DNA of 34,934 bases, taken from Bacteroidota bacterium. GTDB lineage: Bacteria > Bacteroidota > Bacteroidia > Flavobacteriales > JADGDT01. Below, piece by piece: positions 8,099 through 33,540 of the stretch. How positions within the stretch are numbered: the stretch's first letter is position 1; the number at the start of each line of letters is the position of its first letter. The DNA lies in the NCBI GenBank assembly GCA_039714315.1, contig JBDLJM010000016.1, positions 1 through 34,934 of the forward strand. Reading direction: 5' to 3'. The translations under genes and the position numbers were made by a program. Under the pieces are notes generated by a model, which saw only the letters and a program-made list of their open reading frames with translations, ran no database searches and was not told the DNA's origin.

Positions 8099-8106
8099 CA
8101 AATTTA
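8099..8106 (-). promoter_or_regulatory. Candidate -7 promoter box for dusB
   Basis: On the minus strand the bases read TAAATTTG, a full match to TAnnTTTG. Transcription would start near 8095, giving a leader of about 15 nt before the ATG at 8080. No TTG sits at the expected -33 spacing, so the support is partial. Confidence 0.45.
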
Positions 8107-8168
8107 CAAAAAGAAGCTAAGTACATCGAGTAATTATGTATCAAGTCTGTTTTCCGGGGAGGGCAACC

Positions 8169-8231
8169 AGTAAAAAGTAAAAAGTAAAAAGTAAAAAGTA
8201 AAAAGTAAAAAGTAAAAAGTAAAAAGTAAAA
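8169..8231. repeat. Heptamer tandem repeat, nine perfect copies of AGTAAAA
   Basis: Sixty-three bases consist of nine uninterrupted copies of the seven-base unit AGTAAAA. The array lies in the gap between dusB and the upstream beta-barrel gene. It is not coding in any supported frame and lies about 60 bases upstream of the dusB promoter box. Perfect heptamer arrays are prone to slippage, so copy number may vary between strains. Confidence 0.97.
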
Positions 8232-8308
8232 CGGAGTGCCAGCGAGCTAAAGTTGTAAGTGATGTGTGATTAATTTAGCTTAGGTGAAAAAAGAAATAGG
8301 CTAAAATA

Positions 8309-8340
8309 AAAATGAGCTTCCGGTTACAGAAGCTCATTTT
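8309..8340 (-). terminator. Terminator of the outer-membrane beta-barrel gene
   Basis: A perfect 12-base stem (8309-8320 with 8329-8340, core TGAGCTTC/GAAGCTCA) has an eight-base loop. Read on the minus strand it is followed by TTTTTATTTTAG, a T-rich tail. It lies 26 bases past the stop codon of the gene at 8366. Confidence 0.8.
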
Positions 8341-8365
8341 AGCGTAAAAAAAACTAGATCCCACT

Positions 8366-8821
8366 CTAGAATATATTAAAGTTAACTCCAATGGACGCAA
8401 AATTTGATCCGCTGACGGTTCTGTCCAAAGCGAGTTGTATGTCGTATTTTTCATTAATGTGATAGAGTGCAGCTAATTCAAGCCCCACACTTCCTGCAGC
8501 CGAAGGCAGGAAAAATCTGTATGCGAATCCTCCACCTAAATCAAAGTTACCAACATTAAAAAGAATAACCGATGCAATACTAAGGTGGTGTATGTCAGAA
8601 TTTGTTATTACACCATCTATTGCAGTGAATTCGTGGTTGTACTCATATGAGTAACTTGCAGATGTTTTAATCATGAAACCTCCTTCATCGAAATACTCTG
8701 TCAAACCAAATTCAGCTTTAGGTCCAACATTCGAATAAGCTAATCCTCCATATAGTTTTGACTGACCATATGACACAGATGTGATGGCGATAAACGCAAT
8801 TAGTATCAGAATTTTTTTCAT
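8366..8821 (-). CDS. Small outer-membrane beta-barrel protein, function unknown
   Basis: This 151-residue protein begins with a clear signal peptide (about residues 1-20, MKKIL... ending VSYGQ). The mature part alternates hydrophobic and polar residues with many glycine and aromatic positions (GGLAYSNVG, GGFAYRFF), and it ends with GVNFNIF, a terminal phenylalanine. This fits a small porin-family or OmpW-like eight-stranded barrel. I cannot assign a ligand or function. The gene is probably transcribed alone, with its own promoter box at 8895-8902 and a terminator at 8309-8340. Confidence 0.8.
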   Translation of the reverse strand: MKKILILIAFIAITSVSYGQSKLYGGLAYSNVGPKAEFGLTEYFDEGGFMIKTSASYSYEYNHEFTAIDGVITNSDIHHLSIASVILFNVGNFDLGGGFAYRFFLPSAAGSVGLELAALYHINEKYDIQLALDRTVSGSNFASIGVNFNIF

Positions 8822-8894
8822 ATCAAGGATTGTTATTTAAGATTAAACAACATTAAATTAATGGTTAAGGTTAACGGCTAATTAGTGATCATAC

Positions 8895-8902
8895 CAAAAT
8901 TA
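8895..8902 (-). promoter_or_regulatory. Candidate -7 promoter box for the beta-barrel gene
   Basis: The minus strand reads TAATTTTG, matching TAnnTTTG. The predicted transcript start near 8891 gives a leader of about 70 nt. No clear -33 TTG is visible. Confidence 0.4.
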
Positions 8903-9100
8903 ATAATGTTATTATACCGGCGATAATTATAAAAGTTAAAGTCTTGTAAGAATATTCTTTTACGCTTTCCGTAGTCTTAACTTACGTACTTGTTAGTCTT
9001 TAATTATTGAAGTAAAATATATAGAATCTTAGGTTTAGAATAGGGTGTTTACTTTTAATATGCCTTATTTTACAGGGGGTATAAGATGTTTTTGTCCGAA

Positions 9101-9118
9101 ATACCCAGTACTGGGTAT
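9101..9118. promoter_or_regulatory. 18-bp perfect palindrome, candidate regulator binding site
   Basis: The bases ATACCCAGTACTGGGTAT are identical to their reverse complement. The core is two TACCCAG heptamers in inverted orientation, separated by TA. This is the 7-2-7 layout known for NarL-type (LuxR-fold) response regulators, whose heptamer TACYYMT is matched at six of seven positions. It stands out in an AT-rich gap. The bound protein is an inference, and no such regulator is encoded in this window. Confidence 0.55.
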
Positions 9119-9261
9119 ATTATTATGCTTTCCTACAAAATTACTTTGGATAGATATATGTATATCAAACACTTATCTAATTATTTATATACCTCTATTT
9201 TCAGTGCATAATATTTTTCTTACACATGTTTTCCTGAACTTACTATTTGTAATATTTTATC

Positions 9262-9269
9262 TAAGTTTG
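9262..9269 (+). promoter_or_regulatory. Candidate -7 promoter box for the small protein and CPBP protease genes
   Basis: TAAGTTTG matches TAnnTTTG. Transcription near 9273 would give a leader of about 50 nt before the ATG at 9323. The nearest upstream TTG (9247-9249) is only 12 bases away, too close for a standard -33 element. Confidence 0.35.
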
Positions 9270-9322
9270 TCTGAAATCTAAAACAATAATTTATTTGGTA
9301 TAAATAGTAAACTGTCGTAAAA

Positions 9323-9502
9323 ATGGAGTTGTTGAAAAAATTTGATGTCAGAGTATTCATAATATTATTTGTCCTTACAGTAGGAGTTGATTATTTTAAG
9401 GATACTAATTTTGGTAGAAATGATATTTTATCCGGTAGTGGAGCTGCCTTAATCGGTACTTTATTATGGGGAGCTTTTAAAGATAAACTGGGCTTTAAAT
9501 AA
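9323..9502 (+). CDS. Small hydrophobic protein of 59 residues, next to a CPBP protease
   Basis: An ATG at 9323 opens a 59-codon frame ending in TAA eight bases before the CPBP protease gene. The protein starts MELLKKFDVR and has a hydrophobic stretch at about 11-25. A short polar linker (DYFKDTNFGRND) follows, then a glycine-rich second hydrophobic stretch at about 37-51 (SGSGAALIGTLLWGAF), and it ends KDKLGFK. It is likely a two-pass membrane protein. The close spacing suggests co-transcription with the protease, for which it could be a partner or substrate. I do not recognise a family. Size, membrane pattern and operon position support a real gene, but no homology was checked. Confidence 0.6.
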   Translation: MELLKKFDVRVFIILFVLTVGVDYFKDTNFGRNDILSGSGAALIGTLLWGAFKDKLGFK

Positions 9503-9510
9503 CATAAACA

Positions 9511-10425
9511 ATGTTGAAAATTGATCAGTCCGGAAAAAGGTACCAATTTCTTGTCTTTATTGTCGTTACAATAATTAGTGCACAGCTATTTGGATTACTG
9601 GGTAAATTATTGTCCATTTTATTTCTTGACATAAATGTTTTTGATTCCTCATTTACTTTATCAATGTTGTCAATGGAGGACGAAATCCGTTTTTTAAGAT
9701 TCAATCAGCCTTTTAGTACCATTGGGATTTTTCTTATTCCCCCTTTAATTTTTAGGTATTTATTGAATGACAGATTTGGTCTGACTTTTTCTAAATTTCG
9801 TATTTCAAACTCCACACTGTTGAGTACAGTTGTTTTAATTATAGTTGTTAGACCTATAGTTTCGTGGTTGGCAATACTCAATAGTACAATAGATTTGAGT
9901 TTTTTAGGCAAACTTGGCGAGTATGTGATTTCTACTTCTGATCTAATCGCTGAAAAAACTTTGCTCTTGGCCAGGGCAGACTCTATTGACAAGTTATTAA
10001 TAAATATTTTCATCATTGCAATTTTACCGGCAATTGGCGAAGAGTTATTTTTTAGGGCAATTATTCAGCGGTTGTTGTACAAAGTAAGTGGGAGGTTTCA
10101 TCTCTCAATTTGGGTGACAGCTATCGTGTTTGGAGTAATGCATTTTAATGTAAGAGGTGTTTTGCCAATAATATTTCTGGGTTTAATATTAGGATATATA
10201 TATTTTTATACTGAGAATATTTGGTTGGCTATACTTGCACATTTTATTAATAATGCGAGTTTACTGTTAATATTTTTTAAGTTTCCGGTAGAGACCGAAT
10301 CGGTCGTTTCTGATAATATATCCATACCGTCATTATTGTTTTCTGTTTTAATGTCATTCTCATTATTATTTTTTCTATACACGGTTTGGGAGAAACGCAA
10401 AAGTGCGAATTCTTTGAAGCAGTGA
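9511..10425 (+). CDS. CPBP-family intramembrane metalloprotease (Abi/CAAX protease type)
   Basis: The 304-residue polytopic membrane protein carries the three motifs of the CPBP (PF02517-type) family: EELFFR at residues 177-182 (EExxxR), FGVMH at 207-211 (FxxxH) and HFINN at 244-248 (HxxxN). Hydrophobic segments near 12-38, 67-83, 102-123, 160-175, 198-212, 214-231, 236-256 and 273-292 suggest about eight membrane spans. Family members cleave within or near the membrane. Known roles include CAAX processing in eukaryotes and bacteriocin self-immunity or peptide maturation in bacteria. The role here is unknown, but the small membrane protein encoded just upstream is a natural candidate partner. 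A stem-loop at 10463-10490 follows. Confidence 0.88.
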   Translation: MLKIDQSGKRYQFLVFIVVTIISAQLFGLLGKLLSILFLDINVFDSSFTLSMLSMEDEIRFLRFNQPFSTIGIFLIPPLIFRYLLNDRFGLTFSKFRISNSTLLSTVVLIIVVRPIVSWLAILNSTIDLSFLGKLGEYVISTSDLIAEKTLLLARADSIDKLLINIFIIAILPAIGEELFFRAIIQRLLYKVSGRFHLSIWVTAIVFGVMHFNVRGVLPIIFLGLILGYIYFYTENIWLAILAHFINNASLLLIFFKFPVETESVVSDNISIPSLLFSVLMSFSLLFFLYTVWEKRKSANSLKQ

Positions 10426-10462
10426 TTCCCTTTTTGATTTGTGGGCTTTTATTAAAAATGGG

Positions 10463-10490
10463 GACCTGTTTGTATAATGTTATACAGGTC
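10463..10490 (+). terminator. Stem-loop after the CPBP protease gene
   Basis: GACCTGT at 10463-10469 pairs with ACAGGTC at 10484-10490, with further partial pairing inside the loop. There is no strong T run after it, so it may be a weak terminator or an mRNA-stabilising hairpin. Confidence 0.45.
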
Positions 10491-10545
10491 TGTAATCTGT
10501 GTTATTAATGTAAAGAGTTTGCATAAAATATAATCGGCTAATTAT

Positions 10546-10553
10546 TAGTTTTG
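10546..10553 (+). promoter_or_regulatory. Candidate -7 promoter box for lepA
   Basis: TAGTTTTG matches TAnnTTTG. A TTTG at 10518-10521 lies 24 bases upstream, slightly more than the usual -33 spacing. The predicted start near 10557 gives an 11-nt leader to the ATG at 10568 or a 41-nt leader to the ATG at 10598. Confidence 0.5.
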
Positions 10554-10597
10554 CACATACATTAATAATGAGTAATTTTGCAAATCAAATTTTAGGA

Positions 10598-12394
10598 ATG
10601 AAGAGAATTAGGAATTTTTGCATAATTGCACATATCGACCATGGTAAAAGTACTTTGGCCGACAGAATGTTAGAATATACAAGTACTGTTACGGATCGTG
10701 AAAAGCAGGATCAATTGCTCGATAATATGGATCTCGAAAGGGAGAGGGGTATTACGATAAAGAGTCATGCTATTCAAATGGAGTACATGTATAAAGGAGA
10801 AGAATACGTTCTAAACCTAATTGATACTCCCGGGCATGTGGATTTTTCGTACGAAGTTTCGCGTTCTATAGCGGCTTGCGAGGGAGCTCTTCTTATTGTT
10901 GATGCCGCACAGAGTATTCAGGCACAGACAATTTCGAATTTGTATTTGGCTTTAGATAATGATCTTGAAATCATTCCGGTTCTTAATAAAGTAGATCTTC
11001 CCAGTGCTAATCCTGAAGAAGTTACAGATGATATCGTCAATCTAATTGACTGTGAACCCGAGGATGTTATACGCGCCAGTGCTAAAACAGGACTGGGTAT
11101 TCAGGATATTCTTGATGCGATAATAGAAAGAGTGCCGGCTCCCGAAGGAGATCCGGATGCACCATTACAGGCTTTGGTTTTCGATTCTGTATTTAATCAG
11201 TTTAGAGGTATTGAAGCTTATTTCCGTGTTATTAACGGTTCGATAAAGAAAGGTCAGAAAGTGAAATTTCTGGCAACAGATAAAGAATATTTTGCCGATG
11301 AAATCGGTACTCTTAAACTTGAACAGGTTCCGAGAAAAACTATCGGTACAGGCGATGTTGGATATATTATCTCCGGTATAAAGGAAGCTCTCGATGTAAA
11401 GGTTGGTGATACCATTACCGATGCACTGAATCCTACAGAAGAAGCTATTGAAGGTTTTGAGGATGTGAAACCAATGGTTTTTGCCGGGATTTATCCTGTA
11501 GTTAACGATGATTTTGAAGAATTGAGAAATTCTTTGGAAAAGCTTCAGCTAAACGATGCATCACTTACATACGAAGCAGAGTCGTCAGCGGCTTTAGGTT
11601 TTGGCTTTCGTTGTGGCTTTCTTGGAATGCTCCACCTGGAAATCATTCAGGAGCGTCTGGAACGTGAGTTTGATATGACTGTTATAACTACTGTTCCTAA
11701 TGTTGGTTATACAGCCTACCTTAATAAGGAGCCTGATACACCTATAAAAGTTAATAATCCTTCAGACTTGCCTGATTCTACTGTAATGAACAGGGTTGAG
11801 GAACCTTATATTACTGCCTCAATTATTACCAAAGCAGATTATGTAGGAGCCGTTATCGGACTTTGTATCGAGAAACGCGGTGAGATGAGAAATCAGGTTT
11901 ATCTCACTCCTGACAGGGTTGAGTTAACATTCCACCTGCCTCTTGCAGAGATTGTATTTGATTTTTACGACAGGTTGAAGACTATTTCCCGTGGATATGC
12001 ATCATTCGATTATTCGCCAATAGGCAAGAAAGAATCTCATTTGGTTAAAGTAGATATTTTGATTAACGGGGATAATGTTGATGCCTTATCAGCCCTGATA
12101 CACAAAGACAATGCTTATAATATAGGGAAGAAGATGTGTGAGAAGCTGCGCAAGCTTATTCCCCGTCAACAATTCGATATTGCTATTCAGGCAGCTATTG
12201 GTGCCAAGATTATTTCGCGTGAAACCGTAAAAGCACTTCGAAAAGATGTAACAGCAAAATGTTATGGAGGTGATATCTCGCGTAAACGTAAGCTCCTGGA
12301 AAAACAAAAGAAAGGGAAGAAAAAGATGCGTCAGATCGGTAATGTAGAAGTGCCGCAATCAGCATTTATGGCAGTTCTTAAGTTAAACGAGTAG
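10598..12394 (+). CDS. lepA: Elongation factor 4 (LepA) GTPase
   Basis: LepA is a ribosome-associated translational GTPase that back-translocates or helps stalled ribosomes. GTP-binding motifs are AHIDHGKST at residues 11-19, [13 protein letters not shown] and SAKTG. The C-terminal LepA-specific domain follows ([20 protein letters not shown]), and the protein ends VLKLNE. From the ATG at 10598 it has 598 residues, the usual length, and begins [16 protein letters not shown] like other LepA proteins. An in-frame ATG at 10568 would add ten residues ([10 protein letters not shown]) and cannot be excluded, since the promoter box precedes both. A T-tailed hairpin follows the stop codon. Confidence 0.96.
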
Positions 12395-13141: not shown

Positions 13142-13152
13142 GCCCAAAATTT

Positions 13153-13199
13153 AAAGTCTAAAGTCTAAAGTACACTTTGTACTTTAGACTTTAGACTTT
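13153..13199. repeat. 21-bp perfect hairpin built from heptamer units
   Basis: The arm 13153-13173 is the exact reverse complement of 13179-13199, with a five-base loop. Each arm is made of repeated AAAGTCT units ending in AAAGTAC, so the element is both a tandem heptamer repeat and a hairpin. A further partial unit (GTACTTTA) follows at 13200-13207. It ends 13 bases before the ctp stop codon, between the convergent csp and ctp genes, and may serve as the ctp terminator. Confidence 0.9.
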
Positions 13200-13212
13200 G
13201 TACTTTATTACT

Positions 13213-33496: not shown

Positions 33497-33540
33497 AAAA
33501 AAAAGCATTAGAAAAATATATTTTTCTAATGCTTTTTTTT
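33497..33540. terminator. Bidirectional terminator between the porD-like gene and alkaline phosphatase gene
   Basis: A 20-base arm (33497-33516) is the exact reverse complement of 33521-33540, with loop TATA. The core GCATTAG/CTAATGC is flanked by A and T runs, so it works on both strands for the two convergent genes. Confidence 0.9.

Follow-up and report, generated by a model that had tools for sequence, protein, structure and literature searches.

The window analysed here, a stretch of 34,934 nucleotides with a G + C content of 35%, contains at positions 9101-9118 the sequence ATACCCAGTACTGGGTAT, a perfect 18-bp palindrome in which two inverted heptamers, TACCCAG and CTGGGTA (9102-9117), are separated by a TA spacer, just as an earlier note on this DNA had described. 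The palindrome lies within a gap of 501 bp between two divergent genes. On the minus strand, this gap is bordered by a gene coding for a beta-barrel-like protein of 151 aa without a Pfam family (8366-8821), and on the plus strand by an open reading frame coding for a small membrane-type protein of 59 aa (9323-9502), which is followed by a gene for a CPBP (Rce1-like) intramembrane protease of 304 aa (9511-10425; Pfam PF02517, E = 3.7e-21) and then by lepA. An Rfam scan of positions 8100-10600 returned just two chance snoRNA matches (E = 4.5), and no repeat array was listed at 9101-9118 by TRF. Towards the end of the window, at 33497-33540, there is also a 44-bp perfect palindrome with A8/T8 ends, which is probably a bidirectional terminator.

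With respect to its symmetry alone, the palindrome is unremarkable and by itself constitutes weak evidence. The earlier note had claimed that a perfect 18-bp palindrome would arise by chance far less than once per window, which is overstated: Markov copies of the window contain on average 0.27 (order 1) and 0.35 (order 3) perfect palindromes of 18 bp or more, and a 50-kb sample of the non-coding DNA of the same genome yielded three where 1.1 are expected. Only if at least eight G or C are required among the 18 inner bases does the expectation in the Markov copies fall to 0.03 per window. The site stands above chance because it recurs in other genomes and does so with a preferred placement relative to promoter elements, not because it is a palindrome.

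The exact 18-mer was found in 84 GTDB stretches. Among the 80 loci listed, with taxa read from the record titles, 73 belong to Algoriphagus, one to an uncultured member of the Cyclobacteriaceae and four to other Bacteroidota (Nonlabens, Mesonia, Pedobacter and a Flavobacteriaceae MAG), while two lie outside the phylum; viral contigs contained no exact 18-mer. When up to two mismatches to the core were allowed, 12, 9, 7 and 12 copies were counted in four Algoriphagus genomes (7, 7, 5 and 5 of them exact) and 1-7 in the other genomes, compared to 0-3 for the reversed control (nine genomes in total). Variants that keep the symmetry, for example TACCCAATATTGGGTA and TACCCTGTACAGGGTA, were seen as well, which fits the expectation for a dimer site. 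The GTDB copies are mostly flanked by AAAA on the 5' side and TTTT on the 3' side. At one orthologous place the flanks have diverged among Algoriphagus species with the palindrome unchanged, in a scan that demanded exact matches, and this pattern points to selection on the palindrome. Eight of the Algoriphagus loci gave no Rfam match at gathering level, and in the searched literature neither a text with the 16-mer, 14-mer or 12-mer core nor a description of the site was found.

In addition to its recurrence, the palindrome keeps a preferred distance to a sequence resembling the -7 box of Bacteroidota promoters. Over 83 sites in the 80 GTDB loci, TAnnTTTG follows the palindrome at exactly 21 nt in 13 cases, compared to 0-2 cases at any other offset. 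If these sites are taken together with the window, a box with at least 7 of 8 matching bases is present at 21 or 22 nt in 40 of the 84 sites, as against 1-7 at ten control offset pairs, and absent there from the remaining 44. When the sites were scored with a weight matrix built from the 21-nt boxes of this set, 36 of the 84 attained at least 6 bits, compared to 0.46 sites on average and never more than 2 at 24 control pairs. The box of the window, which lies at 22 nt and thus outside the training data, scores 7.3 bits, and 7 bits are reached at control offsets by 0.375 of 84 sites on average.

Outside the Cyclobacteriaceae, all five copies from Bacteroidota (the window, Nonlabens, Pedobacter, Mesonia and the Flavobacteriaceae MAG) have a box with at least 7 of 8 matches at 22 nt. 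The chance of this is 0.024-0.035 for each copy, and 2.3e-8 jointly or 4.6e-7 after allowing for 20 offsets, for a set of copies and offsets of 21/22 nt that were chosen after looking at the data; at no other offset from 0 to 60 do two of the five copies have a box. The two copies from outside the phylum have no box at 22 nt, one of them having a box at 23 nt, and the Pedobacter and Nonlabens copies face convergent neighbours, with no open reading frame just downstream. As six of the 80 listed copies lie outside the Cyclobacteriaceae, and about four would be expected for any 18-mer in 257 Gb by a hand estimate, the lone copy in the window, taken by itself, could be a coincidence; against this, four of the six come from Bacteroidota and all four of these have the box.

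As a counterweight to this post hoc choice of offsets, a scan of 395 Bacteroidia genomes, in which the 22-nt spacing had been fixed beforehand and one mismatch to ATACCnAnTAnTnGGTAT-N22-TAnnTTTG was allowed, bore out the spacing. In particular, 52 matches were found in 31 of the 395 genomes (28 of 339 good genomes and 21 of 197 genera), compared to none with the reversed control and about 0.7 expected by chance according to a hand estimate for 40% G + C. Three of the 52 matches had already been seen, namely the window, the Pedobacter copy and one of the A. boritolerans type, with L219 recurring as L087 and L205 as L117 among these. Positions 6 and 13 of the palindrome, which are left free by the pattern, are complementary in 27 of 41 distinct sequences, a value reached in 5 of 5000 shuffles; for positions 8 and 11 no clear effect was seen (13 of 41, reached in 985 of 5000 shuffles). 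In 17 of the 41 sequences the palindrome is followed by TG, so that a TTG overlaps its last base, and this feature is thus not universal. Judged by sequence, the matches make up a promoter class that is found in several families of Bacteroidia.

In the genome to which the window belongs, the exact 16-base core has only this one copy in 3.41 Mb, and the one other site with up to two mismatches lies inside a coding frame. The other two genomes of the genus, one of them only 68% complete, have no copy of the core with up to one mismatch. In the sister genome (G001) the barrel and 59-aa genes are again divergent neighbours, with 54% identity each, whereas the CPBP gene is located elsewhere; the orthologous gap aligns poorly, and its best match to the palindrome (11 of 18) is at the level of shuffled sequence. 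A search of 196 genomes of the order at E 0.001 yielded neither the barrel nor the 59-aa protein beyond the genus. Out of 395 genomes of the order, two contain the exact 16-mer, namely the one under study and another designated G237. The earlier note had stated that a site unique in the genome and not conserved upstream of orthologous genes would speak against its proposal; taken literally this is what is found for the exact core, but as the motif class is found repeatedly in Bacteroidia, uniqueness and the orthologous gap appear to be an unsuitable test. The composite of palindrome and box with up to three mismatches is barely above the control in the own genome (4 and 3 on the two strands compared to 2 and 1). 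A second class match is present on contig C3, together with a third related copy 579 bp away. In each case a 7/8 box follows at 22 nt, the leaders predicted up to the small open reading frames measure 40 and 48 nt, and the near-identical upstream DNA of these twin promoters (G000 locus L033, 4251-4298 and 4830-4877) precedes reading frames of 104 and 138 aa without a Pfam family. On contig C81 a looser copy, followed at 22 nt by an exact TATTTTTG, is situated upstream of a 7TMR-DISM/HisKA_3 kinase gene adjoining one for a NarL-type regulator, the promoter being directed away from the kinase gene.

Taken together, the most probable reading, to which we assign a probability of roughly 0.7, is that a dimeric activator binds the palindrome within the -33 region of a promoter that lies on the plus strand and serves the 59-aa protein and the CPBP protease, an assignment based on the computed recurrence, preferred spacing and two-fold symmetry, from which we infer activation, transcription start and target genes. 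The proposed layout reads ATACCCAGTACTGGGTAT, 22 nt and TTACTTTG at 9141-9148, a candidate -7 box that matches TAnnTTTG in seven of eight positions; the chance of such a box at this distance with one mismatch is about 0.03. All 14 fixed palindrome bases of ATACCnAnTAnTnGGTAT are present in the window copy, which would thus be representative of the class ATACCnAnTAnTnGGTAT-N22-TAnnTTTG, with N21 in most oriented Cyclobacteriaceae copies. In PMC9723704, the -7 box of F. psychrophilum is reported to span -12 to -5; the sigma-A promoter of Bacteroidota described there shares its -7 element TAnnTTTG with the palindrome promoters and differs from them in that the palindrome fills the -33 region. If the box at 9141-9148 is likewise taken as -12 to -5, transcription is predicted to start at 9153, leaving a leader of about 170 nt to the 59-aa gene as the first gene downstream. 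The centre of the palindrome would then come to lie at about -42.5 to -43.5 in the class, and at about -43.5 in the window, which is the place of a class II activator over the -33 element. A dimeric activator would bind ATACCCAGTACTGGGTAT, occupy the -33 region of a promoter of the sigma-A type in this class II-like position, and most likely turn on the gene for the 59-aa membrane protein and that for the CPBP protease, the latter probably on the same transcript. In the window copy no -33 TTG is present at the end of the palindrome, where the sequence reads TAT-ATT. A scan of the gap for promoters with the E. coli-type consensus gave six hits, compared to 7.0 in shuffles.

The earlier note had offered both the small-protein/CPBP genes and the divergent barrel gene as possible targets and had pointed to a -7 box on the minus strand just beside the palindrome. 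This box, TAATTTTG, is indeed present at 9143-9136, and a TTG lies 22 nt upstream of it (9168-9166), a pairing of which 0.10 per gap are expected as the mean of simulations. The box might be a separate promoter of the barrel gene, in which case the palindrome would be located downstream of its start, and the TTG-N22-TAATTTTG arrangement at 9168-9136 would be in keeping with a repressor operator of that gene, covering DNA just behind the minus-strand start. On the other hand, the geometry of the family indicates the plus strand, there is no -7 box 21-22 nt out on the minus side of the palindrome, and the barrel gene of the sister species has no such site. Since it is the plus strand that has a -7 box matching the family, neither the minus-strand box nor the barrel gene is the target one would expect, so that of the two proposed targets the small protein and protease are the likely ones, and a barrel-gene operator is improbable. 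Somewhat less improbable, though still unlikely, is that the palindrome arose by chance and has no function. The 0.27-0.35 such palindromes expected per window would allow for this, as would the near uniqueness of the core in the genome and its absence from the sister species; yet the sequence agrees in every letter with a motif whose core is found without mismatch 5-7 times per genome in four genomes of Algoriphagus, and its -7 box stands at the very spacing seen in the other non-Cyclobacteriaceae Bacteroidota copies.

An intrinsic terminator hairpin, suggested by a mechanical scan that lists the palindrome as terminator-like and by an RNA fold of -8.4 kcal/mol, is very unlikely in view of a z-score of only -1.67, a T-run that is interrupted, and the distance to a -7 box that is preferred elsewhere in other genomes. 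Scarcely better is the prospect that the palindrome is a remnant of the intergenic heptamer repeats of this species, i.e., two 7-mers that came to stand head to head. The sampled non-coding DNA does have a strong 7-base periodicity and arrays of heptamers folding back on themselves, and the 16-mer copy in G237 is itself part of a run of GTACNNN heptamers. But that copy has no -7 box at 20-23 nt, and the 83 GTDB sites, mostly from Algoriphagus (73 of the 80 listed loci), combine a lack of heptamer arrays, as judged by eye, with the preferred -7 spacing, for which reason this explanation was dropped.

Regarding the regulator that would bind the site, a NarL/LuxR-type (GerE) protein is a first guess, and a tentative one. 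The earlier note had read the palindrome as a NarL-type site, and in its 7-2-7, dimer-like layout this description holds. Like the sites of NarL and NarP, the palindrome consists of two inverted TACCCA half-sites with a 2-base spacer upstream of a promoter; it differs from them in having G as the seventh base of each arm, where TACYYMT has T, in its flanking A and T, and in the preferred 21/22-nt spacing to a Bacteroidota -7 box seen elsewhere. A NarL-family site in the proper sense, bound by a nitrate/nitrite-type or another two-component GerE regulator, is possible but doubtful. In its favour, apart from the layout, are the C3 pair, the sole sites in the genome to match the NarL consensus exactly, each again with a 7/8 box 22 nt away; the C81 copy, placed as it is upstream of a 7TMR-DISM/HisKA_3 kinase gene and near a NarL-type regulator; and GerE genes that adjoin two of 30 class-scan loci and lie about 2 kb from the site in one of 13 further loci. 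Against it, the consensus TACYYMTNNAKRRGTA is not enriched: with up to one mismatch it has 50 matches in the genome, which do not include the window site, and the reversed control has 47. Using a GerE profile built from three fragments in one search round, genes of this type were no more common near the 80 exact 18-mer loci than in controls (two in 624 kb compared to one in 140 kb), and none was found in the window, with five GerE domains over the cut-off in the own genome.

Other known systems offer likenesses of a different kind. The tra box and lux box bound by TraR and LuxR are near-perfect palindromes of 18-20 bp, centred at about -42.5 and overlapping the upstream promoter element. They are thus similar to the palindrome of the window in length, symmetry and position, and different in sequence. 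BrxR and CapW are repressors encoded beside the systems they control. BrxR/CapW and RptR (PMC9122601, PMC9122588, PMC9122589 and PMC12255303), the last of which is called a repressor in the title of its paper, share with the proposed role of the sites described here the transcriptional control of diverse anti-phage systems; the sites described here differ by the geometry of an activator site and by the fact that no common adjacent regulator gene was found among the neighbours clustered or scanned.

The genes behind the sites are varied. In Algoriphagus and one other member of the Cyclobacteriaceae, oriented promoters are followed, 12-22 nt from the predicted start, by the gene for a protein of 81-84 aa, which begins with MIIQT in most cases (L119, 4959-5213; orthologues in L072, L077, L085, L095, L111, L122 and L123). 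Pfam gave no family for the one such protein scanned; next comes a protein of some 415 aa, the start of which we read as PAS-like. A second family of small proteins (100-121 aa) and various unknown proteins are likewise found behind the oriented promoters of this group, as are two Cas9 genes and one Cas6 gene with longer leaders of 143, 250 and 83 nt. At one syntenic place, represented by 11 loci (L078, L080, L088, L092, L104, L118, L124, L130, L131, L135 and L138), there is no nearby open reading frame, nor any ATG-started frame of at least 40 aa in the first 300 nt, and the 19 bases GGGTGATTAAGCAACTTTT are identical in all 11. The conserved transcript predicted there is a putative small RNA of Algoriphagus starting at about GATCAGGGTGATTAAGCAACTTTTCTCA.

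A possible link to anti-phage defence comes from the neighbours of these sites. Ten Algoriphagus proteins picked for their defence-like look, a choice that serves to identify and not to count, gave PADLOC matches to Cas8b, Cas9, type I methyltransferases, IetA, ThsB, AbiLii and cll; the Pfam matches of neighbours include Cas_TM1802 and Cas6. In four Algoriphagus genomes, up to two nearest open reading frames of at least 100 aa on each side were collected for 23 of the 24 exact sites, and these 74 neighbours matched 153 PADLOC families at 1e-8, compared to 10 for 69 control proteins, counts that are pooled over sites and inflated by related models. The controls came from 20 stretches, one of which gave none, with reading frames across the centre left out, and matched a CARF/RtcR-type regulator as well as AriA, ATPase-Toprim, RmuC-type and mads models. 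In one genome of the class scan (G525), four of the six class matches have PADLOC matches downstream (SIR2; PDC-S18 with NERD-UvrD; a weak Mrr-like match; SspA/DndA with PbeA), and a fifth is followed by an Mrr-NACHT protein according to Pfam. In a genome with five class matches (G584), the two downstream proteins scanned were a weak SIR2 match and a DUF3575 protein. For 19 of 30 class-scan loci, Pfam families of the first downstream protein were TonB plug (2), DUF4856 (2), FeoB, CbiX, DUF5723, lipocalin, Lcl_C, TPR, DUF3575 and Mrr-NACHT, and seven proteins had no family.

As these first genes include TonB receptors, DUF4856, FeoB and CbiX, with iron genes among those that copies precede, membership of the class does not in itself signal defence, and the notion that all sites are defence sites was rejected in view of the conserved non-defence groups, i.e., the 81-84-aa and 100-121-aa proteins and the putative small RNA. 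We suspect that several regulators of one family, each with its own duties, are at work. Rather speculative is the wider proposal that an undescribed activator of Bacteroidia, binding ATACC-N8-GGTAT at about -43, might jointly control numerous anti-phage systems of unrelated kinds (type II and I-B CRISPR-Cas, type I restriction, Thoeris, SIR2 and phosphorothioation-linked systems) along with small proteins and a small RNA, with the 59-aa protein and CPBP protease of the window as one more, so far overlooked, part of this immune-type response; neither of these two proteins has a PADLOC match, so that no known defence gene lies directly downstream of the window site. If the link to defence were true, it would amount to a trans-acting switch common to unrelated immune systems. 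To our knowledge, few activator sites are known in Bacteroidota, and the rigid preferred distance to the -7 box in several families provides a concrete handle, in the form of one DNA probe for the regulator and one reporter for the response to phage, DNA damage or metal limitation.

The heptamer repeats are a mark of the species in their own right. In the non-coding DNA sampled (G000 loci L036-L055), 5-mers recur 242, 202, 168 and 128 times at lags of 7, 14, 21 and 28, compared to 29-80 at other lags, and the period is absent from coding DNA and from the sampled sister genome. In the window, such repeats are found at 8169-8231 and at 13152-13207, the latter being a fold-back of (CTAAAGT)n and its near-complement. 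The G237 copy of the 16-mer lies within an intergenic series of five GTACNNN heptamers (L034, about 2012-2046) between genes read as pcm-like and smpB-like. Finally, a REP-like hairpin (CCTGCCTGACTGAGTCACGCAGGCAGG, near copies of it or its complement) occurs several times inside heptamer arrays of the (TATCTTT)n type, at L038 2441-2630, L042 4421-4670 and 5391-5620, L051 7581-7720 and L054 1-270.
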